Part shown: positions 7,001 to 34,768 of the stretch, in pieces
Numbering within the stretch: position 1 is the stretch's first letter
Layout: each line of letters opens with the position of its first letter
Assembly: GCA_002840675.1 (NCBI GenBank)
Contig: PHBR01000008.1
Location: forward strand, 1-34,768
Direction of reading: 5' to 3'
Source: Chloroflexi bacterium HGW-Chloroflexi-9
GTDB taxonomy: Bacteria > Chloroflexota > Dehalococcoidia > UBA2979
DNA length: 34,768 bases
Made by a program: the position numbers and the translations under genes
Notes under the pieces: generated by a model
Told to the model about the DNA's origin: nothing
What the model saw: the letters and a program-made list of their open reading frames with translations, nothing else
Database searches by the model: none

Positions 7001-10000
7001 CCGCGGTAGATCGAAACGGTGACGATGCCCGGCGTGCTGTTTGCCGTCAGCGCGACGGTGCCGCCCTGGCTCGTGTAGAGGACGCCGCTGCCGAGGTTGG
7101 CCTCGATGCTGGCGGCTGGCCCGGTAGTCACCCACGACGCGATCAGTGAGTCGACGCCGTAGGAGATCCCACCGGTCAGCGTGCCGCCGGTCGTGACGAT
7201 GGTGATCACGTCCGGTGCGCCGGTGATGGCCGGGACGGAGAACGTGATGTCGATCGCGGTCTCGTTCTGACCGGTCGGGACGTCGCTCGCGACGATCGAC
7301 GTCCACTGCGGGGTCAGGACGACGCCGACGAGCGCCAGCGTGCCGGTGCCGGCATCGATGCCCGCCTCGACCTCGAGGTCACCGGAGACGGAGCCGAAGG
7401 TGACGGCCGGCCCGGTGTTGCCACCGGTGATGGTGAAGCCGCTGCCGGAGGGAATCGCCTCGGCCAGGGTGAAGGTCACCGTGGTGCCGTCGATCACGAC
7501 CGCGGACGGCGGTGCGCCAATGCCCGGGGTCGCCTGGATGAACCAGTCGGACGGTGAGGGTGCGCCGCTGAAGGTCGTGCCGGCCGGGAAGGTGACCGCG
7601 ATGGTCCCGCCCACGGGCACGCCGTTGTTGGCAGGGGACTGGGTCACGCTCACGAGCGGCGTGCCCATCGGGACCGTCGCCCCGGCGAGGAACGTGATGG
7701 TGGCCACGTCCAGGACCGCCGGGACGCCCTGGATGGTGACCGTCACGGTCAGGACCAGGATGCCGCCGAAGTCGTCCACGATCGTCACGGTGAACGTGTC
7801 CACGCCCTGGAACGCGGTGTCCGGGATGTACACGACGTTGTTGCCGGAGATGTAGGCGATGCCGTTCGCCGGGTCGGAGATGCTGGCCAGGAAGACGGAG
7901 TCGCCGTCCGGGTCAGTGACGCCCGCGAGGACTTCGATGCTGATGCTCTGGTCCGGCCCGGTCGACACCTCGATGTCGTCACCCTCGGGCAGGCCGTTCG
8001 GGAGCACCGTCACGGAGACGGTCGCCGTCGCGACGTTCCCGAGGCCGTCCTCCACCGTGTAGGTGAAGGTGTCGGTGCCGGTGAAGCCCAGCTCCGGGAT
8101 GTAGACGACCTGCAAGCCGTTGATGATCGCCTGCCCGTTGGAGGGCTGTGTCACGGACACGATGGCGAGGCTGCCGCCGACCGGTGCGGTGTCGTTGTCG
8201 AGGACGTTGACCTCGACCTGGCTACCCGCGCGGGTCTCCGGGGCGTCGTCGCCAGCCACGATCGTCGCCTCGACCGTCACGGTCACGGTACCGGTAGCGA
8301 TGCCGCCTCGGCCGTCGGAGACGGTGTAGGTGAAGGTGTCGGTGCCCAGGAAGTTGAGCGCCGGGGTGTACGTGAAGGTGTTGCCAGAGAGCGTCACCGT
8401 GCCGTTGGACGGCTGGGTGAAGGCGACGTTCGGCACCGCCGCGCTGATTGCGGTGTGGATGTCGCCGAGTTCCGTCGCGCCCAGGGCGACCGGGAACACG
8501 GTCAACTGCCGCAGCTCGTCACCTGCGCCACCAGCGCCGTAGAGCGTCTGGCCCAGTGTGATGAGGTCGGTGCCGGTGTCCAGGTCAGTCCACAGCGTGG
8601 CGGTGGTGCCGGCGACGCCGTCCACCCACGCGGTCAGGCCGCGCGCGCCGTCGTACACGAGCGCGATCGTGTGCTCGAGCCCGTCACCGAGGTTCGTCCC
8701 CACGGGCAGGTCCAGCACCACGTCGTTGTTCCACCCGGCGAAGACCAGCTTGTCGTTGCCGAGGCTCGTCCGCGCGATGGAGAACTGCGCGAAGTTCGTC
8801 AGGTTGGTGCCGTAGCCGAACAGGCCGATGTCACCGGGGCCTGCGAAGTTCGCCTTGAAGCGGAACACCACCGTGCGCGGGTCGTTCCCCGTCGGCAGGC
8901 TGCCCACGCCAGAGCGCGAGACGGACCCACCGAAGAAGGAGATCCCGGTCCCGCCGTCGCAGTCACCGGTGGTGGCGCCAGCCGCCGCGCCACCCGAGAG
9001 GGTGCCGGTCAGGCCGTTGCCGGAGAAGTCGAAGAGCGTGCTGCCGCCGGACGGCAGGCACTCCCAGAACAGGCTGGGGCCGAGCGCCACGATCGTCGGG
9101 CGGGCAGCGGAGCCGCTACCTACGTGGAGCGAGTCGAAGTCAGGATCGGAGTCGTTCATCAATACGGCGATGTCGACGGGCTGGTTCTGGCCCGTCGTCG
9201 CCGCGTCGTCCACGGCCACCGGGGGCGCGTTGTCAGGCGTGACGTTGACCATGACGGTCGCGGTGCGCGTCTGGCCGTTCTCGTCCTCGATCGTGTAGGT
9301 GAACGAGTCCGAGCCCTGGTAGAGCGGGCTCGGGGTGTACGTGACCATCGAGCCGTCGGTCGTGACGGTGCCGTGGGCGCCGTCCGTGACCGCGGTGATG
9401 GTGATGCCAGCGCCCGTGTCGTTCGTCAGCACGTCGATCGTGGTGGCCCCGCTCACGAGCGCCAGGTCGTCCACCGCGATGACCGGGCCCATGACCGTGA
9501 GGGTCACGAGCGCGACCGAGGCGCCGCCCTGGCCGTCCGAGACGGAGTAGAGGAACTGGTCCGTACCGCTGTAGCCGGGGTCCGGGGTGTAGGTGATCGT
9601 CAGGAAGTCCGGCGACAGCGAGAGGGATCCGAACTGCGGCTTCGTGAAGGCGCGGTTGAGCACGGCGGCCTCAATGGCCGCGTGGATCAGGTAGGCGTCC
9701 GCCTCATTCACCGCGTCCGGGAAGATCGCGAACTGGCGCATCTCGTCGCCGGCGCCCTGCCAGCCCCACGGGGAGTGGCCGAGCATGACCGTGTCGTCCA
9801 CGGTTTGCAGCGGGATGCCCAGCGTGCCGGGCGCGCTCTGCACGCCGTCCACATACGCGTAGACCGTCACGTTCCCGTCGTACACGAACATGATCGTGTG
9901 CTCGAGGCCGTCGGCGATATTGAAGCCGGGCTGCAGGTCGAAGTGCAGGTCGTTCGCCCACGAGGTGAAGATCAGCTTGTCGTTGCCCAGGATGGTGCGG

Positions 10001-13000
10001 GACACGGTGAACTGCGCGAACGGCGTGCCGTTCAGGCCGTAGCCGAACAGCGGGATGTCAGCCGGGAGCGGCTGGTTCGCCTTGTAGCGCACCAGGGCAG
10101 CGCGCGGCTGCGCCCCCGTCGGCAGGTCCGGGTTGGTCAGCGAGATCACGCCGGTCGGCCCCGGGTTGAAGACCATCGACGAGCCGTTGTCGCAGTCACC
10201 GGTGTAGGTGCCGGGCGTGATGCCAGCGCCGACGATGCCGGTGCGGCCGTTACCGCTCGTGTCGAACTGCGTGGCCGAGCCGCCGAACGGCAGGCACTCC
10301 CAGTGGAGCAGCGGGCCCTGGCGCAGGATCGCCGCGCGGGCCAGCGCACCGGGGGAGATGAACAGCGTGCCACCGTCCGCGTCCGAGTCGTTGTCCAGCA
10401 CCGGGATGGTGACGGAGGTCTCGAATGGTGCGATCGCCGTGTCGTCCACCGCGACCGGGAAGATGTTGTCCGGCGCAACCAGCACCGTGACCGTGCCCGT
10501 CGAGGTGTTCAGGTCCGCGTTGATGATCGTGTAGGTGAACGTGTCGGTGCCGACGAAGTTCGGGTTGCTGGTGTAGGTCACCGTCAGCCCGTCCGTGGTG
10601 ACCACGCCGTTGGCGGGCTGCGTCACGGAGTCGATCGCGATGCCGTCGCCGGCGTCGTTCGCGAGCACGTCGATGGTGACCGGGTCGTTGGTCAGCGTGT
10701 TCGCGCCATCGTCCACCGCGAGCAGGCCGGCGGTCACCGTGACGGTCACGGTCGCTGCGGCGATGCCACCACGACCGTCAGAGACGGAGTACGAGAAGGT
10801 GTCGACGCCGGTGAAGCCCGGATTGGCGGTGTAGGTGACGGCGTTGCCGGTGAGGGTGACGACGCCGTTGGCCGGCTGGGTGAAGGCCTGGAAGGCGGCA
10901 GCCGCGTCGATGGCCTGGTGGAGGCCCTCGATCTGCGGGGCGCTGAGGGCGCCTGCGTACACCGCGAACTGGCGCAGTTCGTCGCCGAAGCCGGCGGCTC
11001 CGTAAACGGTCTGCCCGAGGTGGACGACCCCATCGACGGTGTCGAGCGGAATGAAGAGGTTGGCGGTGGGGCCGGCGACGCCATCGACGTACGCGGTCAG
11101 CCCGGTCGCCCCGTCGTAAACGAGGACGAGCGTGTGCTCGATGCCGTCGCCGAGGTTGGTGCCGGCGGGCAGGTCGATGACGGCGTCGTTGCCCCACGCG
11201 GCGAAGTAGAGCTTGTCGTTGCCGAGGCCGGTGCGGGCGATGGAGAACTGGCCGTTGCCGACGGCGTTGGTGCCGGCGCCGAAGAGCCCGACATCACCAC
11301 CGCCGACGTTCGCCTTGAAGCGCAGCAGGAAGGAGCGCGGCGAGGAGCCGCTCGGGAGGCCCGGGCTGGTGAGGGTGACGGAGTCGCCGGGGAAGAACGC
11401 GAGGCTGGTGCCGCCGTCGCAGTCGCCGGTGGCCGCGCCCGCGGTCACGCCGGTGACGACGCCGTCACGGCCGTTGCCGCTGAGGTCGGTGAGGGTCGCT
11501 GCACCGCCGGCCGGGAGGCACTCCCAGTGGAGGACGGGCCCGAGGCCGTCGATCGCCGCGCGGGCGAGTGCGCCCGGGGAGATCGAGACCGGGTCGCCGT
11601 CCGGATCGGTGTCGTTCGCGACCACGTCGATCAGGACCGGGGTCACCCCAACGGTCGATGCAACGTCATCCACCGCGACGGGCGGCTGGTTCGTTACCAC
11701 CGCGGCCTGGACATCCACGGTCACGGTCGCGCCGGCGATGGCGCCGAACGCGTCGGAGATCGAGTACGTGAACGAGTCGGTGCCGGTGAAGCCGAGGTTC
11801 GGCGTGTAGAGCAGGTTGTTACCGTCCAGCGTCACCACGCCGTTCGCCGGCTGCGTGAAGGACTGGTACGCGGCGGCCGCGCTGACCGCGGAGTGCAGGC
11901 TGGCGATCACAGATGCAGACAGCGCCGTCGGGAAGACGGCGAACTGGCGCATCTCGTCACCCGCGCCGGCGCCGCCGTACAGCGTCTGGCCGAGCATGAC
12001 CTGGCCGTCGAGGGTGCCGAGGGGGATGAAGAGGTTGGCGGTGGGACCGGCGACGCCGTCCACGTACGCAGTCAGGCCGGTCGCCCCGTCGTAGACCACG
12101 ACGAGTGTGTGCTCGATGCCGTCGCCGAGGTTCGTCCCTGCCGGCAGTTCAATGACGGTGTCGTTGCCCCACGCGGCGAAGTAGAGCCTGTCGTTGCCGA
12201 GCCCGGTGCGCGAGATCGAGAACTGGCCGTTGCCGACGCCGTTGGTGCCGAGGCCGAACAGGCCCACGTCACCGGGGCCAGCGAAGTTGCCCTTGAACCT
12301 GACCATGATCGAGCGCGGCGCGGAGCCGCTCGGCAGACCGGGGACGGACGTGACGACGCTCGCGTTGGCCCACGACCAGAACGTCATGGCGGTGCCGCCG
12401 TCGCAGTCGCCGGTGGTGCTGCCGGCCTCGAGGCCGGTCGCGATGCCGTCCCGGCCGTTGCCGCTGCGGTCCACGATCACGCCCGCGCCACCAGCGGGGA
12501 GGCACTCCCACTGCAGCGACGGGGAGAGGTCCGAGATCGCGGCGCGCGCGAGGGCGCCGGGGGAGATCGAGATCGCGTGGCCGTCCGGGTCGAAGTCGTT
12601 CGACAGGACGTTGATGCTGACGGGGGTTCCGCTGGTCGTGCTCGCGAAGTCGTTGGTGGCGAGGGGCGGGTTGTTCGGGAGGGCGCTGACAGTGACGGTG
12701 ACCGTGCCGATGGAGACCAGGAGCTCCTCGTCCTGCACTTCGTACGTGAAGACGTCATCGCCGACGAAGCCGGGGTCGGAGGTGTACACGACGGTGTCAC
12801 CGTCGATCACGGCTGAGCCGTTCGCGGGGTCGCTGACGCTGATGAGCGTGAGCACACCCAGTTCCGGGTCGGCGTCGTTCGCCAGGACCGGGATGATGAC
12901 CGGGACACCAGAGGTGGTGGACGCCGTGTCAGGGATCGCGACGGCCTCGGCCGCACCAGCCGGTGACGCGTGGACCGCGAGCACCGAAATGGTGAAGACG

Positions 13001-13050
13001 AGCGCCGTGGTGAACCACGACAGCGCCTGTCGCGCAGGGAGGTGCGTCAT
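4018..13050 (-). CDS. Giant secreted multidomain protein: cadherin-like repeats with inserted LamG-like domains, DUF4114
   Basis: From the ATG at 13050 the protein is about 3010 residues. An upstream in-frame TTG (13116) exists, but the ATG places a classic signal peptide first (MTHLPARQALSWFTTALVF..., cleavage near ASPAGA-AEA). Residues 34-1770 hold nine Big_9/cadherin-like repeats of about 90 residues. Four of these are interrupted by LamG-like domains at about 163-395, 491-721, 897-1135 and 1311-1542. A unique stretch at about 1773-2031 follows, then six near-identical repeats (2032-2570), a DUF4114 domain (2571-2695, with GFEDVYGGGDQDYNDVV), two more repeats and a C-terminal beta domain (about 2885-3010, RMTGGGNIVV to GGNIQAHH) that resembles the post-COAP-type domain. 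Acidic DPDGD motifs suggest calcium binding. I see no sortase signal or membrane anchor. Likely an adhesin or surface-layer/matrix protein; ligand unknown. Confidence 0.92.
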   Translation of the reverse strand: MTHLPARQALSWFTTALVFTISVLAVHASPAGAAEAVAIPDTASTTSGVPVIIPVLANDADPELGVLTLISVSDPANGSAVIDGDTVVYTSDPGFVGDDVFTYEVQDEELLVSIGTVTVTVSALPNNPPLATNDFASTTSGTPVSINVLSNDFDPDGHAISISPGALARAAISDLSPSLQWECLPAGGAGVIVDRSGNGRDGIATGLEAGSTTGDCDGGTAMTFWSWANASVVTSVPGLPSGSAPRSIMVRFKGNFAGPGDVGLFGLGTNGVGNGQFSISRTGLGNDRLYFAAWGNDTVIELPAGTNLGDGIEHTLVVVYDGATGLTAYVDGVAGPTANLFIPLGTLDGQVMLGQTLYGGAGAGDEMRQFAVFPTALSASVIASLHSAVSAAAAYQSFTQPANGVVTLDGNNLLYTPNLGFTGTDSFTYSISDAFGAIAGATVTVDVQAAVVTNQPPVAVDDVASTVGVTPVLIDVVANDTDPDGDPVSISPGALARAAIDGLGPVLHWECLPAGGAATLTDLSGNGRDGVVTGVTAGAATGDCDGGTSLAFFPGDSVTLTSPGLPSGSSPRSFLLRFKANVGGGDVGLFGAGTNAVGNGQFSIARTGLGNDKLYFAAWGNDAVIDLPAGTNLGDGIEHTLVLVYDGATGLTAYVDGVAGPTANLFIPLDTVDGVVHLGQTVYGAAGFGDELRQFAVYAGALSAPQIEGLHQAIDAAAAFQAFTQPANGVVTLTGNAVTYTANPGFTGVDTFSYSVSDGRGGIAAATVTVTVTAGLLAVDDGANTLTNDPVTIDVLANDAGDGIAIDSVTQPANGVVTTDGLTVTYTSNPNFVGTDTFTYTIINADLNTSTGTVTVLVAPDNIFPVAVDDTAIAPFETSVTIPVLDNDSDADGGTLFISPGALARAAILRQGPLLHWECLPFGGSATQFDTSGNGRTGIVGAGITPGTYTGDCDNGSSMVFNPGPTGVISLTNPDLPTGAQPRAALVRYKANQPLPADIPLFGYGLNGTPFAQFTVSRTILGNDKLIFTSWANDLHFDLQPGFNIADGLEHTIMFVYDGNVTVYAYVDGVQSAPGTLGIPLQTVDDTVMLGHSPWGWQGAGDEMRQFAIFPDAVNEADAYLIHAAIEAAVLNRAFTKPQFGSLSLSPDFLTITYTPDPGYSGTDQFLYSVSDGQGGASVALVTLTVMGPVIAVDDLALVSGATTIDVLTNDTGAGITITAVTDGAHGTVTTDGSMVTYTPSPLYQGSDSFTYTIEDENGQTRTATVMVNVTPDNAPPVAVDDAATTGQNQPVDIAVLMNDSDPDFDSLHVGSGSAARPTIVALGPSLFWECLPSGGSTLFDFSGNGLTGTLSGGAAAGATTGDCDGGTGISFFGGSVSRSGVGSLPTGNDPRTVVFRFKANFAGPGDIGLFGYGTNLTNFAQFSIARTSLGNDKLVFAGWNNDVVLDLPVGTNLGDGLEHTIALVYDGARGLTAWVDGVAGTTATLWTDLDTGTDLITLGQTLYGAGGAGDELRQLTVFPVALGATELGDIHTAISAAVPNVAFTQPSNGTVTLSGNTFTYTPALNFLGTDTFTYTVSDGRGGIATGTVTVTVEATIVAGDDAPETRAGSQVEVNVLDNDTAPVGGSLAIVSVTQPSNGQAIINGLQVVYIPELGFTGTDTFTYTVEDGLGNVATATVSVTVLPNGLPEGDDIEVSTGPDQSISIEVLAGVTDPDGDSVFLASISDPANGIAYISGNNVVYIPDTAFQGVDTFTVTIVDDFGGILVLTVTVTIQGVPAVLDVATITFLAGATVPMGTPLVSVTQSPANNGVPVGGTIAVTFPAGTTFSGAPSPSDWFIQATPGIGAPPSAVVIDGTTVTFTLAEAIPSGSGFTITGGNTGPAVTFGSVSGDLEVEAGIDAGTGTLALVGVVLTPQWTSIVASDVPTGQNETAIDITFSVPAITGAPDVITIVTTGGTLTGGISYGVDSLIASWVTTGPAASIEANLGSGVLYTSQGGTVALTANSTPGIVTVSIYRGSVLLGSTTVEFRPNNAPEGVDIDATTAAGTAVFIDVLGGVTDPDGDVVTIDAVTQGANGSVTISGGEVVYTPAPGFSGTDSFTATVVDIHGGALTLNVTVDVTNQAPVGDDIEASTVAGTPVTIDVLDGVTDPEGDDVTIDAVTQGANGTVTISGGNVIYTPAPGFSGTDTFTVTVVDEHGSELVLTVTVQVTNAAPVGDDIETVTQAETPITIDVLAGVSDPDGDDLVVDAVTQGASGSVTTDGTEVTYTPVTGFSGTDTFDVTVTDGNGGTLTITVSVLVNGNPVGTDVNASTQAGTPVTIDILAGITDPDGDAVTIDSVTQGANGSVTISGGEVVYTPAPGFSGTDTFTVTVEDENGGTLTITVTVTVNGAPVGADASASTQAETPVTIDILGGVTDPDGDDLAITSVTQGANGSVTISGGNVIYTPAPGFSGTDSFTVTVEDENGGSLTITVTVTVNGAPEGNDIGTTTGADAPVTVDILAGVSDPDGDPLAIDSTTTPANGTVAVSGGSVTYTPNAGFDGEDAFDVTVTDGNGGTATITVTITVAGAPRIFVAADACIAIKVMAFSAGYTSQIWLMGPDGPRYLGVTNQNVNQQVTVGFYAAGTTLDFGIKVQQTGYTFVTGTASANPDNLVHAQINAGSGSVLYVVGFEDVYGGGDQDYNDVVFQVIGIPCVVEASNDTATTPGGTPVTVNVLANDTATVGELTVTAVSTPTSGTATTDGTTITYTPAPGFSGTATFTYTVTDASGATDTATVTVTVQSALEAVDDAAVTPKNTAVTIDVRANDSGTGLTVISVTQPGSGNSKGTVSITGGNVKFTPKKNQTGTVTFTYTVRDSSGATDTATVTVTIGAPTSGGTGTGRMTGGGNIVVSGDRYTFGLSLRCNASGNNFQFNDHDSGVKFHLQTITSVTCSDNPSINPKPRPASIDTMVLTGTGRLGNGATGTVELTITDQGEPGRNDTISVVIKDASGQVISQVSGKLTGGNIQAHH
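5346..6955 (-). repeat. Six tandem, near-identical coding repeats of about 268 bp
   Basis: Six consecutive cadherin-like units of about 89 residues share the core VTIDVLAGVTDPDGD, VTQGANGSVTI, YTPAPGFSGTDTFTVTV and NGGTLTITVTV. Units 4 and 5 (roughly 5610-6150) are the closest at DNA level. The last unit before the DUF4114 domain has drifted most. Repeats this similar could recombine and change the length of the protein between strains, and they are a risk for assembly collapse. Confidence 0.9.
8425..12563 (-). repeat. Four copies of a LamG-like domain, each inserted in a cadherin-like repeat
   Basis: Copies lie at about 11866-12563, 10890-11580, 9648-10360 and 8425-9120, each about 232 residues. 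Each starts after ISPG with A-ARAAI or a variant, carries WECLP, SGNG, GDCDGG or GDCDNG, RTxLGNDKL, GDGxEHT, YDGxxGxTAYVDGV and GDEMRQFAVFP-like motifs, and ends just before the resumed repeat FTQPANG or a variant. Two cysteines (WECLP and GDCD) are kept in all four copies and may form a disulfide. Confidence 0.88.
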
Positions 13051-13541
13051 AGAATCGCCCGATCGATTAGACCCCAGCCAGTTGCCTGATATGAAGTTAC
13101 CGGTCGGCACGGGCAAGGGGGGCTCCTACCCCGTCCTCCACCTTCACTCTCAACCTCTCCTATACCGTCTTTACCGTTCCTTCACTGAGAAATAGAGTCC
13201 GTCGCTGAGCAGCGGTCAGCGCTGCCCGGTTCACTGTCTTTAGAAGACATAACGAATCAAGAAGCGGATCCCGCCCGCGTGCCTTCGTGGCGCGTTCGAG
13301 GGCGGTTCGGCGCGCGCCGTTCGACCTCCCGTGAGGGTGTTTCGGCGGCCCAGACCGGCGACGTTCCGCACCCCGCCGGGTGTCACTGCGAGCGGTGAGT
13401 GACGCACGAGGTAGACCGCACATGACGGCGACCGCAACGCGATTCGCATGTGATTGGCACACGGTCGGCGCGCGAATGCGGCACATACCGTGCGCGGCGC
13501 GCTAGAGTCCCGTCAGCCCTCGGACTGCTCCTGGAGTGCAC
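13051..13541. other. Intergenic region between the giant gene and livG, with short repeats
   Basis: This region carries no convincing gene; the open frames in it have no family features. The part 13140-13260 is visibly richer in A+T than the surroundings. It contains a tandem nonamer pair CTATACCGT-CTTTACCGT (13160-13177), the octamer CCTTCACT twice (13141-13148 and 13179-13186), a third TTCACT at 13230-13235 and a small palindrome GTCTT-TAG-AAGAC (13236-13248). These lie 90-200 bases upstream of the giant gene's ATG on its side and are candidate regulatory sites. The GC-rich part 13261-13541 must hold the livG promoter, but I find no good hexamer pair there. Confidence 0.5.
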
Positions 13542-21050: not shown

Positions 21051-21078
21051 TTGACACAGTATCGGGGACTTGTATTCT
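21051..21078 (+). promoter_or_regulatory. Near-consensus sigma-70-like promoter of the polysaccharide locus
   Basis: A perfect -35 hexamer TTGACA (21051-21056) is followed after 16 bases by TATTCT (21073-21078), four of six matches to TATAAT. It is the best promoter in the window and sits at the head of a run of six plus-strand genes. It overlaps the only canonical in-frame start codon of the first gene. Confidence 0.6.
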
Positions 21079-21747
21079 CACGAAGCGGGGACGGGGAAGG
21101 ATGCTTCCATCGCTACGGCTGAGCGAACCCGTGCGCAACCAGCCCCACGCCGCGTTTGGTACGGGGTAACGAAGGTCGGCATCGACCTCGTTCTGGCCAT
21201 CTTGTCCCTCGCGGCGCTCTCGCCAGTCCTGCTGATCGCGGCCCTCGCCGTCCGCTTCACCTCGCCTGGCCCCATCCTGTTCCGCCACCAGCGTGTTGGA
21301 CGGAATGGTGTCCCGTTCGTCGTCTACAAGTTCCGGACGATGCGAACCGATACGGGTCTGACCCCCGACGCTATCGCCTCCTTCCGCGAGAACTACAAGT
21401 TGGCGGGCGACCCGCGCATCACCCCGGTCGGCCGCTGGCTGCGCCGGACCAGCCTGGACGAAGCGCCGCAACTCCTGAACGTCCTCAGCGGCACCATGTC
21501 GATCGTTGGGCCCCGCCCTGTGACACCAGTGGAGCTGCATGAGAAGTACGGTGAGCACGCCGACGAACTGGTTTCGGTGAAGCCGGGCCTCACGGGGCTC
21601 TGGCAGGTCTCGGGACGGTCATCCCTGACCTATCGGCAGCGCGTTGATCTGGACCTCCAGTACGTGCGTGAGCGCGGGCTGTGGACGGACCTCAAGATCA
21701 TCGCCCGCACGCCGCTCGCGGTGCTGCTCATGCGCGGGGCCGAGTAG
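21070..21747 (+). CDS. Polyprenyl-phosphate sugar-1-phosphate transferase (initiating glycosyltransferase)
   Basis: A 225-residue member of the bacterial sugar transferase (WcaJ/PglC-like, Bac_transf) family. It moves a sugar-1-phosphate from a nucleotide sugar to undecaprenyl phosphate at the membrane, the first step in building a surface glycan. Motifs: the membrane re-entrant helix [87 protein letters not shown] and DLQYV. All catalytic-core motifs are present. The start is uncertain: TTG at 21070 is the only canonical in-frame start, yet it lies inside a promoter-like sequence. An ATG with GGGGAAGG at 21101 is out of frame, and its frame stops at 21169. The conserved domain begins near 21170, so the core call is not affected. 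Confidence 0.9.
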
Positions 21748-21766
21748 CGCCCGCCCGCGGGACACC

Positions 21767-24181
21767 GTGGCCCATTCACCACTCACGCCCATCCCGCTCC
21801 GCTGGCGGATCGCCACCCTGCTGGCGGTCGCCCTCGCCGTCCTCGTCTTCGATTTCGGGCGTCGTTCGGTGACCGGGTACCGCGAGCTCAGCGCCGCCGT
21901 CGACCGCATCGAGGCGGCGCGTGCGACGCTGGAGCCGATCGTCCGCTTCGACGCATCACGCTGGCCGGCCGCGGAAGCGATCGCCGTCGCTCACGCTGAC
22001 TTGGAGGAAGCAAACCGCCGCTTCGAGCGTGCGGACCGCCGGCTCAGCTACGTGCCGGGGGTTGCCCGGCTGTTCGCATGGGTGCCACGCTGGGGAGACA
22101 GCCTGGGACACGCGCAGGACGCGCTCCGCGCCGGGCGGACGGTCGCCGGCAGCACCGACCGGCTGGTGCGCCGCCTGGACGCCCTGGTCGCGGGTGAGGG
22201 CCGCATCGCCGACCGTGCCTATCAGACCTTCGTGATCGACGCGGCGCCCCTGCTCGCGGAACTCGAGACGCTCGCGGCGTTGCGCGGCGACCTCGAACGC
22301 CTCGCGGCGGTCGACTGGCACCCACCGTTTGGGCGTGTGGGCCGCGCGCTCCAGCTCGCGTTGGCGGAGCTCGAACGGGTGGAGGAGGCCCGCGACATCG
22401 CGACAGGACTCCGTGATGGGCTGCCGGTGCTGCTCGGGTACGACCAGCCGCGGACGCTGCTGCTCCTGGGCCAGAACGATCACGAGGTGCGTCCGACCGG
22501 CGGGTTCATCGGCACCGTCGGACTCCTCACCCTGGATCAGGGGCGCGTGACCTCGAGGCGGTTCGGGTCCTCGTACGACTTCGATGCGCCGACACGTGAT
22601 GGACTGCGGACGCCGCCCCTCGATCTCTCGTCGTCGCTGGGCATTGGCGAGTGGCACATCCGCGACGCCAACTGGTCTCCGGACTTCCGCGTATCGGGCG
22701 AGACCGCCCGTCGCTTCCTGGCGGAGGACCTGGGCGTCGAGGCCGACAGCGTGGTCGCGGTGGATTCGCACTTCGTCGCGCTGCTCCTCGGCGCCCTCGG
22801 CCCGGTGGAGGTGGATGGGTACGACGAGCCGCTCACCCAGGACAGCTGGTTCGTGCAGGCAGAGAACAGCATCTACGCCCTGGAGTTCGGCGAGACGGCC
22901 GCCCCCGCGGACGTTGGCGAGGGCGGCGTGAACCTCGTCGCAAACCCGGGCTTCGAGGCGTCGCTGGCCGGATGGGACGCGGCCGGTGACGCCGAGCTCG
23001 ATCTGCTCGAGGCGTTGGAGGACGCGGCCTACGGCAGCGGTGCGCTGCGGGTCGATGCACACAGCGCGGGAGGCGGCGCGCGTTACACCGGCGCAGCGAA
23101 TGCTCGCGCGGGCCAGGCCTACACCGCGTCCGTCAGTGTGCGTGCGGCGGACGCCGCCTCGGTCGGTGCCGAGGTACAGCTGCTGTTCGAGGCGCGCGGC
23201 GGTGAATACGAGCAGGCCTCCACGACCATCCGCCTCTCCGATCAGTGGCAGCGGTTCTCCGTGACGACCACCTGGGCCAACGAGGGCCACACCGGCTGGG
23301 GGCTCACGGTCCGGGACGCCATCGGCCAGTCGCTCGTCGTGGAGATGGACGGCGTGCAGGTGGAGGCCGGCCCGGAGGCAACGCCCTACGAGGAGACGGA
23401 TCGCACGAGCACCGAGCAGGCTGGAGGGCGCGGGGTGGCGCGGCAGGCCTACCTCAGCCCGGTGCTCGACACGCTGCTCGAACGCGCGGAACTAGCATCC
23501 GGCGACACCGTGCCGGCGCTGATCGGCGCCCTCAGCCAGGCCGTCCGGGCACGCAACCTCCAACTGTATTCGCCACACGGATCGGTCGCCGCGCTGGCGA
23601 GACAGCTTGAGGTCGACGGTGCGATCGAAGCGCCGGCGGACGGCGATCAGCTGGTCGTGGTGGACGCGAACGTCTCGTACAGCAAACTCCAGCCCGCCAT
23701 CACCCGCTCCATCACGTACCTCCTGGGGCAGGACGGCCACGTGGACATTCTGATCCGCTGGCGGAACGACCTGCCCACCTTCGACGGCGGGCGGTACGCG
23801 CGGCTGGGACAGGACGGCATGATCTGGGACCCGGTCGCCTACCGCATGAACACTGCGCCCGGGACGTTCGCGACCTACACCCGGCTCATCCTCCGTGGCG
23901 ATGCGGAGACGGTGAGGACGACCGGATTCGAGCAGCGCGGCCTCTTCCCTGGCGAGGACGCCCTCACCTTTGCTGGGCGGGTGATCGTCCCACCTGGCGA
24001 GGAAGCCTTCGTGGCGGTGAGCTACGAATTGCCGGACCGCCCGCAGACTCTGCGCCTCTGGAAGCAGGGAGGCTTCGCTTCCACCACCGTGAAGGTGCTG
24101 GTGAACCAGGGCGGGACGCAGCACGTCGCGTTCGAGGGCCTGCTCCTGGAGGACACCGTGGTCGATCTGAAGGCGCCCTGA
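21767..24181 (+). CDS. DUF4012 protein with an inserted carbohydrate-binding-like module
   Basis: About 804 residues from GTG 21767, 19 bases after the sugar transferase; the longer open frame upstream overlaps that gene and is a shadow. One N-terminal membrane segment (about 11-28) anchors an extracytoplasmic protein. The DUF4012 core includes LLGQNDHEVRPTGGFIGTVG (about 229-248), SYDFD, WHIRDANWSPDF and VVAVDSHFVALLLGALGPVEV. At about 388-551 a separate beta module interrupts it: LVANPGFEASLAGW, WQRFSVTTTWANEGHTGWGL and VEMDGVQVEAG are typical of family 4/9-like carbohydrate-binding modules. The DUF4012 part then resumes (RQAYLSPVLDTLLERAEL...). DUF4012 proteins often lie in polysaccharide loci but have no proven function. 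The module is related to that in the last gene of the window. Confidence 0.88.
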   Translation: MAHSPLTPIPLRWRIATLLAVALAVLVFDFGRRSVTGYRELSAAVDRIEAARATLEPIVRFDASRWPAAEAIAVAHADLEEANRRFERADRRLSYVPGVARLFAWVPRWGDSLGHAQDALRAGRTVAGSTDRLVRRLDALVAGEGRIADRAYQTFVIDAAPLLAELETLAALRGDLERLAAVDWHPPFGRVGRALQLALAELERVEEARDIATGLRDGLPVLLGYDQPRTLLLLGQNDHEVRPTGGFIGTVGLLTLDQGRVTSRRFGSSYDFDAPTRDGLRTPPLDLSSSLGIGEWHIRDANWSPDFRVSGETARRFLAEDLGVEADSVVAVDSHFVALLLGALGPVEVDGYDEPLTQDSWFVQAENSIYALEFGETAAPADVGEGGVNLVANPGFEASLAGWDAAGDAELDLLEALEDAAYGSGALRVDAHSAGGGARYTGAANARAGQAYTASVSVRAADAASVGAEVQLLFEARGGEYEQASTTIRLSDQWQRFSVTTTWANEGHTGWGLTVRDAIGQSLVVEMDGVQVEAGPEATPYEETDRTSTEQAGGRGVARQAYLSPVLDTLLERAELASGDTVPALIGALSQAVRARNLQLYSPHGSVAALARQLEVDGAIEAPADGDQLVVVDANVSYSKLQPAITRSITYLLGQDGHVDILIRWRNDLPTFDGGRYARLGQDGMIWDPVAYRMNTAPGTFATYTRLILRGDAETVRTTGFEQRGLFPGEDALTFAGRVIVPPGEEAFVAVSYELPDRPQTLRLWKQGGFASTTVKVLVNQGGTQHVAFEGLLLEDTVVDLKAP

Positions 24182-24221: not shown

Positions 24222-24806
24222 ATGACGGCTGCGGAGACGCTCTTCAGCGCTGGACTTGCGGAGCATGCGGCTGTGCTGGAAGCCGTGCGCCGTGACCTCG
24301 GCGGCCCCTTCGAGCGGATGCTGGAGGCGTGGGTCATCGCCACCCGCGGTGGCGGCAAGATCATGTTCTGTGGCAACGGGGGCAGTGCGGCGGACGCGCA
24401 GCACCTCGCCACCGAACTTACCGTCCGCTACGTCTCGGATCGCCCGGCGATCGCCGCGCTGGCGCTGACCACGGACACCTCCGCGCTCACCGCGGTCGCG
24501 AACGACCACGGCTACGAGACGGTGTTCGCGCGCCAGGTGGAGGCGCTCGGCCGCCCGGGCGACGTCCTCGTCGCGATCTCCACCTCCGGCCGCAGCCCGA
24601 ACATCCTGCTGGCGCTACGCCGCGCGGGTGAACTGGGCATCGTGCCTGCCGCCCTCACCGGTGGCGATGGCGGCGGGGTCGTGGGCCTCGCCGACCCGGT
24701 GATCGTCGTGCCCTCTCGCACCACCGCGCGCATTCAGGAGATGCACATCACGCTGGGGCAACTCCTCTGCTCGGGGCTGGAGCAAGCCCTCGGGTACGCT
24801 TCGTGA
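24222..24806 (+). CDS. gmhA: GmhA-like sedoheptulose-7-phosphate isomerase (SIS domain)
   Basis: A 194-residue SIS-fold enzyme. GmhA converts D-sedoheptulose 7-phosphate to D-glycero-D-manno-heptose 7-phosphate, the first step of heptose nucleotide synthesis. It aligns without gaps to E. coli GmhA as I recall it: FCGNGGSAADAQH places the metal/catalytic H61 and E65 at the same numbers, STSGRS is the phosphate site, and RIQEMH gives Q172 and H175. At position 180, where E. coli has the metal-binding histidine H180, this protein has Gln. DiaA-like SIS proteins also lack that histidine, so a changed role is possible, but the operon with hddA favours heptose synthesis. The next gene overlaps its stop by four bases. 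Confidence 0.88.
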   Translation: MTAAETLFSAGLAEHAAVLEAVRRDLGGPFERMLEAWVIATRGGGKIMFCGNGGSAADAQHLATELTVRYVSDRPAIAALALTTDTSALTAVANDHGYETVFARQVEALGRPGDVLVAISTSGRSPNILLALRRAGELGIVPAALTGGDGGGVVGLADPVIVVPSRTTARIQEMHITLGQLLCSGLEQALGYAS

Positions 24807-26056
24807 CCGTCTGCCGAGTGTGCTCCGGAGACTCGCTCCGGCTGGTGATCGACCTCGGCGACCAGCCACATTGCAACTCGCTCATCGGTCCCGAGGCGCT
24901 TGCTGAGCGCGAGCCGTACTACCCCCTGCGGCTCTTCTTCTGCGAGGACTGCACCACCGTTCAGATCGACCACACGGTGCCGAAGGAGACGATGTTCTCC
25001 GAGTACCTGTACGTCTCCGGCACCACCGAGACCCTCCGTGCCCACTTCCGCGACACCGCGGAGCGGTTGACCGCGCGCCTCGGGCTGCAGTCCGGCGACC
25101 TCGTCGTGGACATCGGCAGCAACGATGGCACCTGGCTCGCGGAGTTCCAGGCGCTGGGGCTGCGCGGGCTCGGCGTCGAGCCGGCACGAAACATCGCGGC
25201 GCTCGCGAACGACGCCGGTATTCGCACGCTCAACCGCTTCTTCAACGCCGAGGTCGCCACGGCGATCCTCGACGAGGGCACGCCGCCGAAACTGGTCACA
25301 GCGGCCGGCGTCTTCTTCCACCTGGAGGAACTGCACAGCGCCACGGAGGGTGTGGCCGCGCTCTGTCGCGCGGGCGCGGTGTTCTGCGTGCAGGCGATCT
25401 ACCTCCGGGAGATGCTCCGCCAGACCGCGTTCGACAACATCTATCACGAACACCTCACCTACTGGACGCTGCGCTCGTTCAGCGTGTTGCTGGAGCAGTA
25501 CGGGCTGGAAGTGATCTCCGCCAACGTGGTGCCGATCCACGGTGGCACCATGGAGCTGCTCATTGCGGAGCGCGGGCGCTTCCCGGTCGACGCCTCGGTG
25601 GAAGCGATACGAACGCGAGAGACCGAGGAACGGCTGGGCGAGGTTGAGACGTACCTGGCGTTCGCCGAACGCGTCCGCGCGATCGGCCGGGACCTCCTCG
25701 CGATCCTGGAGTCGTACCGCGCGGCTGGGAAAACGGTGTACGCCTTCGGCGCCCCGGCGAAGGGGGCGACGATGCTGAACTCGTTCGGCATCGACACTCG
25801 GTTGGTGGCGCTGGCGACCGAACGCAACCCGCTCAAGGTCGGCCACTGGATCCCCGGTGCACGCATCCCAATCGTGCAGGAGGGGGCGGTGCCGGAGCCG
25901 GACGCGTACCTCGTGCTGCCGTGGAACTTCCTGGGCGAGTTCCTCCGTCGCAACCAGGCCTACGTGGAGGGCGGGGGCGACTTCATCGTGCCGATCCCCC
26001 GACCGAGGGTGATCACGGCGGCCAATATCGACGAGGAACTGGCGGGCATAAAATAG
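24803..26056 (+). CDS. Sugar C-methyltransferase-like SAM-dependent enzyme
   Basis: A 417-residue three-part methyltransferase of the NovU/TylC3/TcaB9 type. The N-terminal zinc-binding part has Cys4, Cys7, Cys47 and Cys50. The SAM-binding Rossmann core has VVDIGSNDGTWL followed by GLRGLGVEPARN. The motif IYHEHLTYWTL carries the Glu-His pair known to be catalytic in this family. IHGGTMELLI and a C-terminal nucleotide-binding-like region with VYAFGAPAKGATMLN complete the family pattern. Known members methylate a carbon of a nucleotide-linked keto-sugar. GTG 24803 overlaps the gmhA stop (GTGA), so the two are coupled. Lying between gmhA and hddA, it may make a C-methylated sugar or heptose; the actual substrate is unknown. 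Confidence 0.9.
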   Translation: MTVCRVCSGDSLRLVIDLGDQPHCNSLIGPEALAEREPYYPLRLFFCEDCTTVQIDHTVPKETMFSEYLYVSGTTETLRAHFRDTAERLTARLGLQSGDLVVDIGSNDGTWLAEFQALGLRGLGVEPARNIAALANDAGIRTLNRFFNAEVATAILDEGTPPKLVTAAGVFFHLEELHSATEGVAALCRAGAVFCVQAIYLREMLRQTAFDNIYHEHLTYWTLRSFSVLLEQYGLEVISANVVPIHGGTMELLIAERGRFPVDASVEAIRTRETEERLGEVETYLAFAERVRAIGRDLLAILESYRAAGKTVYAFGAPAKGATMLNSFGIDTRLVALATERNPLKVGHWIPGARIPIVQEGAVPEPDAYLVLPWNFLGEFLRRNQAYVEGGGDFIVPIPRPRVITAANIDEELAGIK

Positions 26057-26087: not shown

Positions 26088-27083
26088 ATGTTGATGACCT
26101 CGCGGACACCGCTGCGCGTCAGCCTCTTTGGCGGGGGGACGGACTACCCAGGCTGGTATCAGCGCGAGCGCGGCGCCGTCATCGGCTTCACCATCGACAA
26201 GCACATCTACATCTCCGCGCTCCGCCTCTCCTCCTTCGTGGACTACCGCTACCGCATCTCCTACTCGAAGCTCGAGGCGACCCACCGGATCGAGGAGATC
26301 CAGCACCCGGTTATCCGCGCCGTCCTGCTCCGCGAGCACTTTGACGACCCGATCGACTGCTCGATCCAGGCCGATCTACCCGCGAACACCGGCCTGGGGA
26401 CGTCCTCCGCGTTCACCGTCGGCTTCCTGAACCTCGTCGCGGCGATGAAGGACGCGCCCCGCACGAGGATGGAACTCGCCCGGCTCGCGATCGAGGTTGA
26501 GCAGCAGGATCTGCAGGAGCGTGTCGGCGTCCAGGATCAGTTGCACGCCACCTTCGGCGGCCTCAACCACTTCGAGTTCGAAGGCGACCAGGTCCGCGTC
26601 CTCACCCCGCATGTCCGAGGCGAAACGCTGGATCTGCTCGCGGACTGGATGCTCCTCGTCTACACCGGCACCAAGCGCCACGCCTCCGCAACACTCGGGG
26701 AGCAGTTGGAGAACACCGCCGCGCAGCGCGTGGATGTTGAGTTGCGAGAGATGCTGGCGTTGGTGGATGAGGCGCATCGCCTGTTCGAGGGCTGTCACGG
26801 CGATGATCTGCCGCGCGAACTTAGCCGCCTGCTCGCGGAGGGGTGGCGCCTGAAGCGTCGCCTCTCCTCGCAGGTCACGAACTCCGACATCGACACGCTG
26901 TACGGGGCGTGCCTGGGCGCGGGCGCGCTCTCCGGGAAGCTGTGCGGCGCCGGCGGCGGCGGCTTCCTGCTGATGATCGTCCCGCCGGAGCGCCGCGCCA
27001 CCTTCATCGAGACCGTCGGCCGGGAACGGTGCATTCCGTTCCGCATCGAGCACCACGGTTCAACGATCCTGCGCGGGGGCTGA
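26088..27083 (+). CDS. hddA: HddA-like D-glycero-D-manno-heptose 7-phosphate kinase (GHMP kinase)
   Basis: A 331-residue GHMP-family kinase. HddA phosphorylates C1 of heptose 7-phosphate in the GDP-heptose route. Motifs: RTPLRVSLFGGGTDYPGWY at the N-terminus, the ATP-binding loop LPANTGLGTSSAFTVG (about 98-113), VGVQDQLHATFGGLN and the C-terminal KLCGAGGGGFLLMI. These match the HddA/heptose kinase group rather than galactokinase or mevalonate kinase. The ATG at 26088 is taken; an in-frame ATG at 26094 is an alternative. It follows the methyltransferase by 31 bases and the next gene starts 3 bases after its stop. The later enzymes GmhB and HddC are not in the window. Confidence 0.9.
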   Translation: MLMTSRTPLRVSLFGGGTDYPGWYQRERGAVIGFTIDKHIYISALRLSSFVDYRYRISYSKLEATHRIEEIQHPVIRAVLLREHFDDPIDCSIQADLPANTGLGTSSAFTVGFLNLVAAMKDAPRTRMELARLAIEVEQQDLQERVGVQDQLHATFGGLNHFEFEGDQVRVLTPHVRGETLDLLADWMLLVYTGTKRHASATLGEQLENTAAQRVDVELREMLALVDEAHRLFEGCHGDDLPRELSRLLAEGWRLKRRLSSQVTNSDIDTLYGACLGAGALSGKLCGAGGGGFLLMIVPPERRATFIETVGRERCIPFRIEHHGSTILRGG

Positions 27084-29408: not shown

Positions 29409-30244
29409 GCCTGCTTCGCCTGGCCCGCGGCTCCGTCCGGCGCGCCGTCCGCGCCGGCCTCGGGGCCGACCGCGAAGCCGCCCTCCACCGTGCCTACCAC
29501 GACGTCCTCCGCCGCACCGGCCGGTTTGTGCCGCCGGAGGATGCGCTCACGCTGGCAGTCCTGTCGCTCCTCGCCGCCCGCGCCCGCACGATCCTGGACG
29601 TCGGCGCGAACACCGGCCGGTACACCCACCTCTTTGCCGAGGCTGCCACGGCCGCCGCGACGTTGCACGCGTTCGAGCCGCACCCGGGCGCCCGGGCGTT
29701 GCTGGAGGCGAACACCGGTCGCGACCCCCGCGTCCACATCCATGACTGCGCGCTGGGCGAGGCGGACGCAGCGCTGACGCTCGCGGTGCCGCTCGATGAG
29801 CGAGGCAACCCGGTGAGCGCGCTTGCGCGCGTCGGTGCGGCGGTGGCGGGCGAGCAGTCACTCGCCGTCCGCGTCCGCGCGCTGGACGCGCTGGTCGCTT
29901 CGGGCGAACTGACGTTGGAGCAGCCGGTGCTCGCGAAGATCGATGTCGAAGGGCACGAGGGCGCCGTGCTCGCGGGGGCGCGCCGCCTGCTGGAAGCGGG
30001 GGCCGCGATCTACTTCGAGTCGCAGGAGGGCCACCTCGACCGTCCCGGGAGCACGTCGCCGTGGCCCGTGCTGCGGGAGGCGGGATACGAGGTCGTCGTC
30101 CGCGATGGTGATGGCTGGCGACGGTGCGACGGCCCGATTGCCGGGCGGCCGAACTACCTCGGACTTCCGGGTGGGACGCTGCCCGCGGGCGAGGTCTCTC
30201 ATGCCGCGCTGGTTGCGACGCTCGCTAGGTGGGTGACCGCATGA
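29405..30244 (+). CDS. FkbM family methyltransferase
   Basis: A 279-residue SAM-dependent methyltransferase. The FkbM pattern is clear: TILDVGANTGRYTHLFAEA (SAM motif I), HAFEPHPGARALLEAN, a central VRALDALV segment and LAKIDVEGHEGAVLAGARRLL, then EAGYEV near the C-terminus. FkbM enzymes O-methylate sugars or polyketides; in this locus a sugar hydroxyl is the likely target. The start is TTG at 29405, with no good ribosome site of its own but overlapping the stop of a 21-codon frame that has one. Its stop overlaps the ATG of the next gene (ATGA). Confidence 0.88.
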   Translation: MSLLRLARGSVRRAVRAGLGADREAALHRAYHDVLRRTGRFVPPEDALTLAVLSLLAARARTILDVGANTGRYTHLFAEAATAAATLHAFEPHPGARALLEANTGRDPRVHIHDCALGEADAALTLAVPLDERGNPVSALARVGAAVAGEQSLAVRVRALDALVASGELTLEQPVLAKIDVEGHEGAVLAGARRLLEAGAAIYFESQEGHLDRPGSTSPWPVLREAGYEVVVRDGDGWRRCDGPIAGRPNYLGLPGGTLPAGEVSHAALVATLARWVTA

Positions 30245-31542
30245 CCGCACCGGCGCGCCCTTCACGGCCGGCCGCAATCTCACGCACGCAGGTGCGCCTG
30301 CACCACTGGGCCGCCGTGATCCTGCTGCTCGCCTACGTCTCCGGCGACGGTGTCGCCACGGCCATTCAGGCCACCCGCGGATGGGCGAGCCCGTATCCAC
30401 TGATGGTGCCGTTCCTGTTGCTGGCGATCCTCCTCATGGTGGTCGACCGGGGACGAGTCTCCGTGCGGCTCGTGATCTGGATCCTCTCCCTGCTCGCGTT
30501 CGCGACGGCGGTGCTGCTGGCACACCTGAACGTGTTCCGCAGCGTCAACCTCGCCGGCTACGGCCAACTGTGGGTGATCCTGCTGGCGATGTTTGCCGTG
30601 CAGGATCTGGTCGCCCATGCGTCGGATGGGATGATCGAGGCGTTCCGGCGCAGCGTGCGCATCTTTCATTTCGCTCTTGCTGCCTACCTCGCGATCAGCG
30701 CGGTGGTCTGGTACACCATCGGCCTTGACCTCGGAATCTCCAGCCTGATCCTGAGGACACCGACGGTCCTGAGCGAGTACTACGGCTTCCGACCGTCCGG
30801 CCTGAGCCGCGAGCCGGCGTGGGCCGGGTTCCTGTTGATCTCCACGTTCATCGCGGTCTACGTGAGCAACCCCAGGGACCGCCTCCCCGCGTTCGCCGCC
30901 CTCATCGTGGGGATCGCGTCGCTCCGGTCGGGCACGGCGTTTGCGTTCACGGTGATCGCGATGGCGGCCCTTGTCCTGCAGAGCCGGCGTCATCTGCCCT
31001 TCGGGCGGTCGCTGTTGATCAGCATCGGAGGGGCGTTCGTCCTGATCTTGCTCGTCGGGGAGCGCGCAAGCACGGTGCTCCAGGGCGCTGATCCGTCCGG
31101 TCTCATGCGGGTTGAGTCCGGGCGGGTTGCCTGGGACGTCATCAGGGAGTCGTTCCCGGGTGGTGTTGGATATGGGAACTTCCGCGACCACGCGGAGTAT
31201 GGGCAACAGTTCGATCGCTGGATCAACCTGGACGGCACTGACACCTACAAATCGGACATCGCGATCCTCAACCTGATCGCGGAGTTCGGCGCGCCGGGCC
31301 TGGTGATCGTCGGCGTGCTGGTCGCGCTCTACTGGCGCGGCCACCACCTCCTGCTCTGGGCACACCTGGCTGCGATGCTCTTCCTCACGGGCGGCCTCCT
31401 CATCCCCTCGAACGTGCTCGTCGTCGCCGTCATCGGCTTCCGCGAGCGCGAGCGCCGGCTAGCGGCGGCGCAGACGCGGGTGGTGTCGGTGGTACCGCCG
31501 AGGCGGGTCGCGCCGCTGCGCCATCCGCATGTGACGACGTGA
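30241..31542 (+). CDS. Wzy/O-antigen ligase-like polytopic membrane protein
   Basis: About 433 residues with roughly ten hydrophobic segments, rich in Leu, Val and Ala. Between the last segments lies a large outside loop containing SGRVAWDVIRESFPGGVGYGNF, then TYKSDIAILNLIAEFGAPG, a pattern seen in O-antigen polymerases and ligases (G-G-G-N-F followed by the N-x-I-x-E-F-G helix). RPSGLSREPAWAG also fits this class. Such proteins join glycan repeat units or transfer glycan to an acceptor on the outer face of the membrane. The ATG at 30241 overlaps the FkbM stop. Polymerase versus ligase cannot be decided from sequence. Confidence 0.8.
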   Translation: MTAPARPSRPAAISRTQVRLHHWAAVILLLAYVSGDGVATAIQATRGWASPYPLMVPFLLLAILLMVVDRGRVSVRLVIWILSLLAFATAVLLAHLNVFRSVNLAGYGQLWVILLAMFAVQDLVAHASDGMIEAFRRSVRIFHFALAAYLAISAVVWYTIGLDLGISSLILRTPTVLSEYYGFRPSGLSREPAWAGFLLISTFIAVYVSNPRDRLPAFAALIVGIASLRSGTAFAFTVIAMAALVLQSRRHLPFGRSLLISIGGAFVLILLVGERASTVLQGADPSGLMRVESGRVAWDVIRESFPGGVGYGNFRDHAEYGQQFDRWINLDGTDTYKSDIAILNLIAEFGAPGLVIVGVLVALYWRGHHLLLWAHLAAMLFLTGGLLIPSNVLVVAVIGFRERERRLAAAQTRVVSVVPPRRVAPLRHPHVTT

Positions 31543-33647: not shown

Positions 33648-34768
33648 CTAGCCCCCGCGCGTCTGCCACGGGGCCCAAATGGCGGCCTTGTGGAGGACGC
33701 CATCGATCTGGTCGCCAGCGACATCTTCGGTCGCTCCAAGCGTGACGGTCCGCAGCGGCGGGAGACGGGGTCCTTCTACAACATCCTCCGTGGCATCTAC
33801 TCGCAGCCGTCCGATTCCGCCATCCCAAGTGGCGATCAGGGCAATGAGCTGGCCCACGCTGTGCTCCTGTGGGATTGCGACCGCGGCCGTAGCAGCGCCC
33901 GATGAGATCGAAAGGTGCCACTCACCGGAGGTCTCTGCTGCGACGCGGATGTGCCGGCTCGGTGGCCCGGAGATCTCGGCGACGACGTGCCGGCGTCCGT
34001 CGCTGGCTGGCCAGAAAGGGGCGAAGGCAACCTCGATCCGACACGCGTTGATCGCTCCACCCGCGCGGAGAACGGCGGCGGATCGGAGGCTTGGACTGCC
34101 GTGGGCGGTCGCATCCCAAGCGTAGCCACCACCATGTGATCCGTCTGCGTAACCCGTCACGAGCCCAGACTCGTATTGGACACCATCCACATGAAAAGCG
34201 AACGCTGCCTGTGGGAACGCGCTCCGATCTAGCAGCCCCCAGCCCGTGTGGCCGGACTGGGCCCACGTTGCTGCGATCACCACGCGACTCCATGTCTCGG
34301 TGAGGACGTGGTCGGTGGCGAAGATCTCGTAGGTGCCTCCCGGCGCGTCCAGATACACCTGCACGGTCTTGCCGATGTCGGACGGCGAGGCGGCGCGCAG
34401 GTGCATGGAGGCGGCGTAGGGGGCGCCCTGCGCGGCGTTGCCGGAGCCGGTGACGCGGATGCCGTGACCGGTGCTCGTGACGTCGACGCGCGCGTAGGCA
34501 TTGCCGAAGGCGCCGCCGCCCGAGGTCTGCCGCGAGATCGCCGCGCCCGCGACCGCGCTCCAGCCGGACAGGTCCACCTCGAACGAAGGGTTCGTGACGA
34601 AGTTCGTCGTGCCGCGCTCGATGCGGAGGCCGGGGCCGTGCGGCGTGACGATGGCCGGCGCGGCGCCTTCGATCTGCAGCGGGACCAGCCCGCGGGGCGT
34701 CAGCGCCGGGCCGCTGCCGCGCCATAGCCAGTCCGGTCGCGCGGCCTCGACGCGGCCCGGCGAGCCGG
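33648..34768 (-). CDS. Secreted protein with carbohydrate-binding-like and LamG-like modules (5' end beyond the window)
   Basis: About 372 residues are visible; the frame is open at the right edge, and the GTG at 34577 is internal. Upstream of it the reading continues as ...GLRIERGTTNFVTNPSFEV. Residues about 53-190 of the visible part form a beta module (NFVTNPSFEVDLSGW, TWSRVVIAATWAQSGHTGWGL, FHVDGVQYESG) like family 4/9 carbohydrate-binding modules. It is followed by YADGSHGGGYAWDATAHGSP, a linker common in tail-like and secreted proteins. The rest (about 195-372) is a concanavalin/LamG-like domain with CRIEVAFAPFWP, LIALIATWDGGIGRLRVD and LGATEDVAGDQIDGVLHKAAIW. It shares the module with the DUF4012 protein at 21767. 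Likely extracellular and glycan-binding; signal peptide not visible because the start is missing. Confidence 0.85.
   Translation of the reverse strand, partial: GSPGRVEAARPDWLWRGSGPALTPRGLVPLQIEGAAPAIVTPHGPGLRIERGTTNFVTNPSFEVDLSGWSAVAGAAISRQTSGGGAFGNAYARVDVTSTGHGIRVTGSGNAAQGAPYAASMHLRAASPSDIGKTVQVYLDAPGGTYEIFATDHVLTETWSRVVIAATWAQSGHTGWGLLDRSAFPQAAFAFHVDGVQYESGLVTGYADGSHGGGYAWDATAHGSPSLRSAAVLRAGGAINACRIEVAFAPFWPASDGRRHVVAEISGPPSRHIRVAAETSGEWHLSISSGAATAAVAIPQEHSVGQLIALIATWDGGIGRLRVDATEDVVEGPRLPPLRTVTLGATEDVAGDQIDGVLHKAAIWAPWQTRGG

Follow-up and report, generated by a model that had tools for sequence, protein, structure and literature searches.

LytR-CpsA-Psr (LCP) enzymes attach polysaccharides to cell walls, and their fold holds a glycan linked to polyprenyl pyrophosphate and hands this glycan on to an acceptor. 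In the numbering of Cps2A, the catalytic residues are R267, R362, R374, D234, D246 and Q378, with R362, R267 and R374 contacting the pyrophosphate (PMC7831098). The absence of LCP proteins from Dehalococcoides was reported earlier (PMC2632651). DUF4012 proteins have been reported from Gram-positive bacteria, Cyanobacteria and CPR bacteria (PMC6744442). In Bifidobacterium longum 105-A a DUF4012 gene (BL105A_0406) adjoins cpsD, in the order transferase, DUF4012, and was silenced along with it in the published cpsD deletion (PMC5412050). A third described system is the head spike fibre of the Rhodobacter gene transfer agent (RcGTA), namesake of the NCBIfam family GTA_spike_fiber and a reported binder of capsular polysaccharide (PMC10218006). 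Here we describe, from one Chloroflexota genus, a DUF4012 protein with a predicted LCP-like core and a module of sugar-binding type inserted in it.

The window (the whole stretch of DNA that was analysed, 34,768 nucleotides) is a contig of a metagenome-assembled genome. It contains a polysaccharide locus in which Pfam also detects glycosyltransferases, and which looks like one for a heptose-containing polysaccharide. The features on which the argument draws are the following.

21070-21747, forward strand: bacterial sugar transferase of the priming polyprenyl-phosphate glycosyl-1-phosphate transferase type, immediately before the DUF4012 gene (Pfam PF02397 Bac_transf, 206 bits)
21644-24181, forward strand: DUF4012 open reading frame, open throughout, with GTG at 21767 as the likely start
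21767-24181, forward strand: DUF4012 protein with an inserted carbohydrate-binding-type module (Pfam, AlphaFold2)
22442-22870, forward strand: Pfam DUF4012 domain, the N-terminal part of the predicted LCP-like core, with the motifs GQNDHEVRPTGGF and VAVDSHFVALLLGALGPVEV (Pfam; fold from an insert-free relative)
22895-23434, forward strand: whole insert, about 180 residues when the low-confidence linkers at its two ends are counted, bounded by the two helices flanking the site (alignment, AlphaFold2)
22931-23401, forward strand: carbohydrate-binding-type module, CBM_4_9 / GTA_spike_fiber (Pfam at 22931-23275, NCBIfam at 22967-23401, Foldseek matches to CBM4, CBM22 and CBM16)
23435-24178, forward strand: continuation of the core, with the VARQAYLSPVLDTLL helix, an Arg that aligns with the LCP RxxRQ motif or next to it, and the beta-rich C-terminal part (AlphaFold2, HHalign, column conservation)
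24222-24806, forward strand: SIS-domain protein of the polysaccharide locus (Pfam SIS_2), putatively a GmhA-like isomerase
24803-26056, forward strand: sugar C-methyltransferase (Pfam Methyltransf_13/_14)
26088-27083, forward strand: GHMP-type sugar kinase (Pfam GHMP_kinases), possibly of the heptose kinase type
30229-31542, forward strand: membrane protein of the Wzy/O-antigen-ligase type (Pfam Wzy_C, 37.7 bits)
34161-34613, reverse strand: second copy of the module, in a protein truncated where the contig ends, 41-42% identical to the module of the insert

Elsewhere in the window, a giant protein of 3032 residues (4018-13116, reverse strand), with about 20 Big_9/cadherin-like repeats and a DUF4114 domain, is probably a surface protein. 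According to Pfam, Bac_transf lies directly upstream of the DUF4012 gene both in the window and in L002 (record G002:C302), a second genome of the genus. As a general neighbour of DUF4012 the priming transferase was rejected: a strict motif scan matched the window only, to which Pfam added L002. In L086 and L087, two further members of the family, the few neighbouring genes that were looked at belong to other kinds, and within the family the pairing of transferase and DUF4012 looks local to the genus.

The window protein (P0001) consists of an N-terminal membrane-type helix, a helical stalk, the predicted LCP-like core and a beta-rich C-terminal part, and its topology would be extracytoplasmic and membrane-anchored. 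It belongs to the DUF4012 family (Pfam PF13196), scoring 96.5-100.5 bits at residues 231-372 against a cut-off of 28. The earlier note had described the core of this protein as broken between ALEFGE and VARQAYLSPVLDTLL, and alignment with insert-free relatives bears this out: the insert occupies residues 382-561, between these two segments, and the place given to the module agrees with ours. The Pfam model stops ahead of the insert; it is the wider conserved core that is interrupted and that resumes after it. Our comparison set comprised 98 DUF4012 proteins (47 in a class alignment and 51 from a phylum sample), 96 of which are free of the insert. At the insert site, the window protein and its L002 ortholog have 208 residues versus 22-41 in the other 45 of the 47 (29 in insert-free relatives of the same family), and the 51 further proteins from the phylum have 25-40. 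The insert as an integral part of DUF4012 proteins, a possibility that the note had raised, is ruled out by the insert-free relatives in both alignments. Pfam scans of both protein sets found CBM_4_9 only in the two members of the genus, and the sole Bacillota protein compared (L003) is without insert. DUF4012 itself is present in 44 of 294 genomes of the class and in 102 of 301 genomes sampled across the phylum.

What might the interrupted core be? Because the module dominated a first Foldseek search, an insert-free family relative (L023) was folded instead, giving an AlphaFold2 model with a mean pLDDT of 85.6 and a pTM of 0.84. LCP domains take the first 11 places among its PDB matches, including LytR, Cps2A with octaprenyl pyrophosphate, LcpA and TagV, at probability 1.00, target TM-scores of 0.35-0.48, 11-15% identity and E-values of 9.5e-4 to 7e-3, which are modest even at their best; some of the entries are annotated by old names only. 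The two best matches are structural-genomics entries with titles that state no function, which we take to be LCP domains in line with the rest of the list. Moreover, HHalign aligned 96 DUF4012 proteins with 20 LCP proteins of the class over 107 columns (P = 3.2e-4), with a score of 35.2; the highest score among 60 controls with shuffled columns was 21.9. This alignment pairs the VDGVIAVD...LL...GPV segment of DUF4012 with the I..YV.VDF.GF...D.LGGV segment of LCP proteins, and the RK.F helix of the former with the R..RQ helix of the latter. An LCP fold is thus predicted by structure search and profile alignment, but the catalytic residues of LCP enzymes are largely missing. In the column of R374 or the one beside it, 78 of the 98 DUF4012 proteins have a basic residue, which is Arg in the window protein. 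The AL.Y.R.R loop of LCP proteins has no DUF4012 counterpart in the HHalign alignment, and the remaining catalytic residues could not be recognised in the DUF4012 sequences; by eye, the R.D motif of D246 seems to correspond to TGG, and the SIPRD arginine (R267) was not seen. Additionally, the LCP profile (PF03816, LytR_cpsA_psr) has no match in the window protein or its genome. As the loop and most catalytic residues are missing, we call DUF4012 LCP-like and not a member of the LCP family. The note's statement that DUF4012 has no established role stands for the literature searched, although the predicted fold now offers a role that can be tested. In the portions of that literature available to us we saw no link between DUF4012 and LCP proteins, and databases may already record one.

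The strongest of the rival explanations, which we regard as a real possibility while leaning against it, is that the core does not function as LCP domains do: as a scaffold, it would sense the polysaccharide machinery or bring it into position, and would share the alpha/beta fold without binding a lipid-linked glycan. The loss of most LCP catalytic residues argues in this direction, as does the presence of both families in many genomes. Nonetheless, the top PDB matches are LCP domains without exception, and DUF4012 has near-invariant charged columns of its own, with Glu (of ELRPTGG), Asp, Lys and Arg at 94-99%, which suggest a functional pocket. DUF4012 and LCP proteins occur together in 26 of the 44 DUF4012 genomes of the class, which rules out a simple replacement of LCP by DUF4012. 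Within the family of the window, no PF03816 protein was found in any genome searched, and MurC scores above its cut-off in 28 of 30 genomes; the window's own assembly, 82% complete, gave no full MurC match. Among the DUF4012 frames, some are fused to other domains: sortase (2), protein kinase (1), glycosyltransferase family 2 (1), TPR (1) and GDP-mannose dehydratase (1). The sortase fusions fit a role in envelope attachment.

The insert had been proposed to be a module of the carbohydrate-binding type, and profile scores and structural matches both agree. CBM_4_9 (PF02018) covers residues 394-508 with 30.2 bits in the whole protein and 33.8 in the isolated segment (cut-off 25.9), and GTA_spike_fiber (NF048003) covers residues 406-550 with 48.7 bits in the whole protein and 52.6 in the isolated module (cut-off 36), which places the module above the curated cut-offs of both families. 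In the AlphaFold2 model of the window protein (804 residues, mean pLDDT 82.9) the insert is an all-beta domain, with ten strands, and lies between the helices 361-374 and 563-575. With Foldseek, the whole model matches CBM4-2 of the Rhodothermus xylanase, CBM22, CBM16, CBM29, domains of Klebsiella phage tail fibres and phage tailspike domains in the PDB, each with probability 1.00. Structure prediction, the check that the note had suggested, thus yields a beta-sandwich-like domain, modelled with moderate pLDDT and recognised as CBM4/22/16-like. In the linkers on both sides pLDDT drops to 27-45, and the placement of the module relative to the core is therefore not fixed by the model. Among viral models, phage tail proteins and 'CenC-like carbohydrate-binding' proteins match best, and the tail fibre family PHROG 4492 matches the module with an E-value of 2.2e-10. 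A direct origin from a phage or plasmid was discarded: tblastn of the module against phage and plasmid records found nothing, and the link to phage fibres rests on profile and fold searches. A scan of viral contigs for the module gave no confirmed relative, and no phage genes were identified within the window.

In the HHalign alignment, the module is inserted precisely at the position of the missing AL.Y.R.R loop, in which, on our reading of the motif, R362 would sit; the insert is thereby predicted to lie beside the pocket. We favour, at roughly even chances for the claim as a whole, a membrane-anchored LCP-like protein of polysaccharide transfer or attachment whose module holds the glycan at the pocket. 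The LCP-like core would handle a lipid-linked polysaccharide outside the cell. In this genus, a module of the CBM4/phage-fibre type would have entered the core at the loop with which LCP enzymes bring R362 beside the pocket. There it may grip the glycan that leaves the pocket, be it the product of the locus or an acceptor glycan, and this grip could raise the local concentration or the selectivity for transfer or attachment. Glycan binding and the ligand are inferred; binding of the locus polysaccharide, to which the note had pointed, and any transferase activity of the DUF4012 protein would be further steps. More tentatively still, and with less confidence than doubt, DUF4012 could be an unrecognised, widespread second branch of the LCP fold that attaches envelope polysaccharide with different active-site residues, is the only such protein in some lineages and here carries a phage-fibre-type module at the position of the catalytic loop.

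Alternatively, the module may take no part in substrate handling and, as a carbohydrate-binding module, fasten the protein to an existing envelope structure (S-layer glycoprotein, peptidoglycan or capsule) or orient it there, which we consider rather unlikely. Relatives of the module are found at the ends of extracellular proteins or between their domains, where an anchor would be expected. In Chloroflexota, as identified by eye, they occur in PKD-repeat surface proteins, hydrolase-like and phosphoesterase-like proteins and a phage-derived-looking protein. Among solved sequences, the closest come from modules of an endoglucanase associated with the S-layer, a weak match (E ~0.06). Closer to home, the second copy in the window precedes an apparently LamG-like part in the protein cut by the contig end (33648-34768, reverse strand; no Pfam match at 1e-3), seemingly a surface protein. 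For a mere anchor, however, a site in a core loop beside the pocket and not at an end is odd, and the protein already has a membrane-type helix. The envelope anchor and the non-enzymatic scaffold are the main rivals to a glycan-holding transfer protein; they concern different parts, module and core, and do not exclude each other. In another genome of the class, a phage-like protein (L082:52-1998, forward strand) contains a relative of the module with 34% identity, a possible link to phages. Two further module matches (G218, G062) were dropped, as they looked like out-of-frame GC-rich artefacts without the NPxFE motif.

A less probable alternative, and in our view an unlikely one, is that the module has lost sugar binding and acts as a spacer or in contacts between proteins. 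Folds of the CBM type often undergo this loss and also take on non-glycan roles, and the module is diverged, as its weak PDB sequence match shows. Yet the module shows no obvious decay. It shares the motifs TWA..GHTGWGL and DGVQ.E with the second copy, its closest relative after the ortholog among 294 genomes of the class and 400 of the phylum (34.5 bits against GTA_spike_fiber, just under the cut-off). Furthermore, dN/dS between the window and L002 is 0.16 in the module, comparable to the rest of the gene (0.11 in the DUF4012 domain, 0.17-0.26 elsewhere), which indicates that the module is maintained under purifying selection. Over the same gene (21752-24178 versus 8001-10397 in L002) dS is uneven, 0.66 in the module and 0.15 in the C-terminal part, which may reflect recombination. 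Finally, a neutral or artefactual insertion (chimeric assembly, phage fragment or pseudogene) could be suspected in a metagenome-assembled contig with a module family frequent in phage tail proteins, but it is highly improbable and already contradicted by the open frame, the purifying selection and the L002 ortholog (89% identity over the protein), in which the insert, its boundaries and the upstream gene recur. In a third genome of the genus (G001) the protein was not matched. The insert is probably a late addition restricted to the genus; since the second copy was not found in the search of the sister genome, it is not clearly the donor.

With a predicted LCP-like fold and an adjoining priming transferase, DUF4012 becomes a testable claim on the assembly or attachment of surface polysaccharides. 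The inserted module is a natural experiment in this respect, since the ligand of such a built-in handle for glycans could point to the substrate.

Within the sampled set, a CBM-type module inside a DUF4012 core is a new architecture made of parts of known kinds. Like LCP enzymes, the window protein has a membrane-anchored layout, a place in a polysaccharide locus, the predicted fold and the aligned helix/RxxRQ region, but its helical stalk is longer and it has a beta-rich C-terminal part. Its overall layout is that of its insert-free DUF4012 relatives, none of which (96 proteins) has the 180-residue insert of the CBM type. With CBM_4_9 modules (CBM4, CBM9, CBM16, CBM22) it shares the NPGFE...GW start and the beta-sandwich-type model, whereas it is not joined to a glycoside hydrolase and sits inside an LCP-like protein of a polysaccharide locus. 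With the fibres of gene transfer agents and phages it shares the NF048003 profile and the match to a PHROG tail fibre family, yet its host protein is cellular and not a component of a particle.
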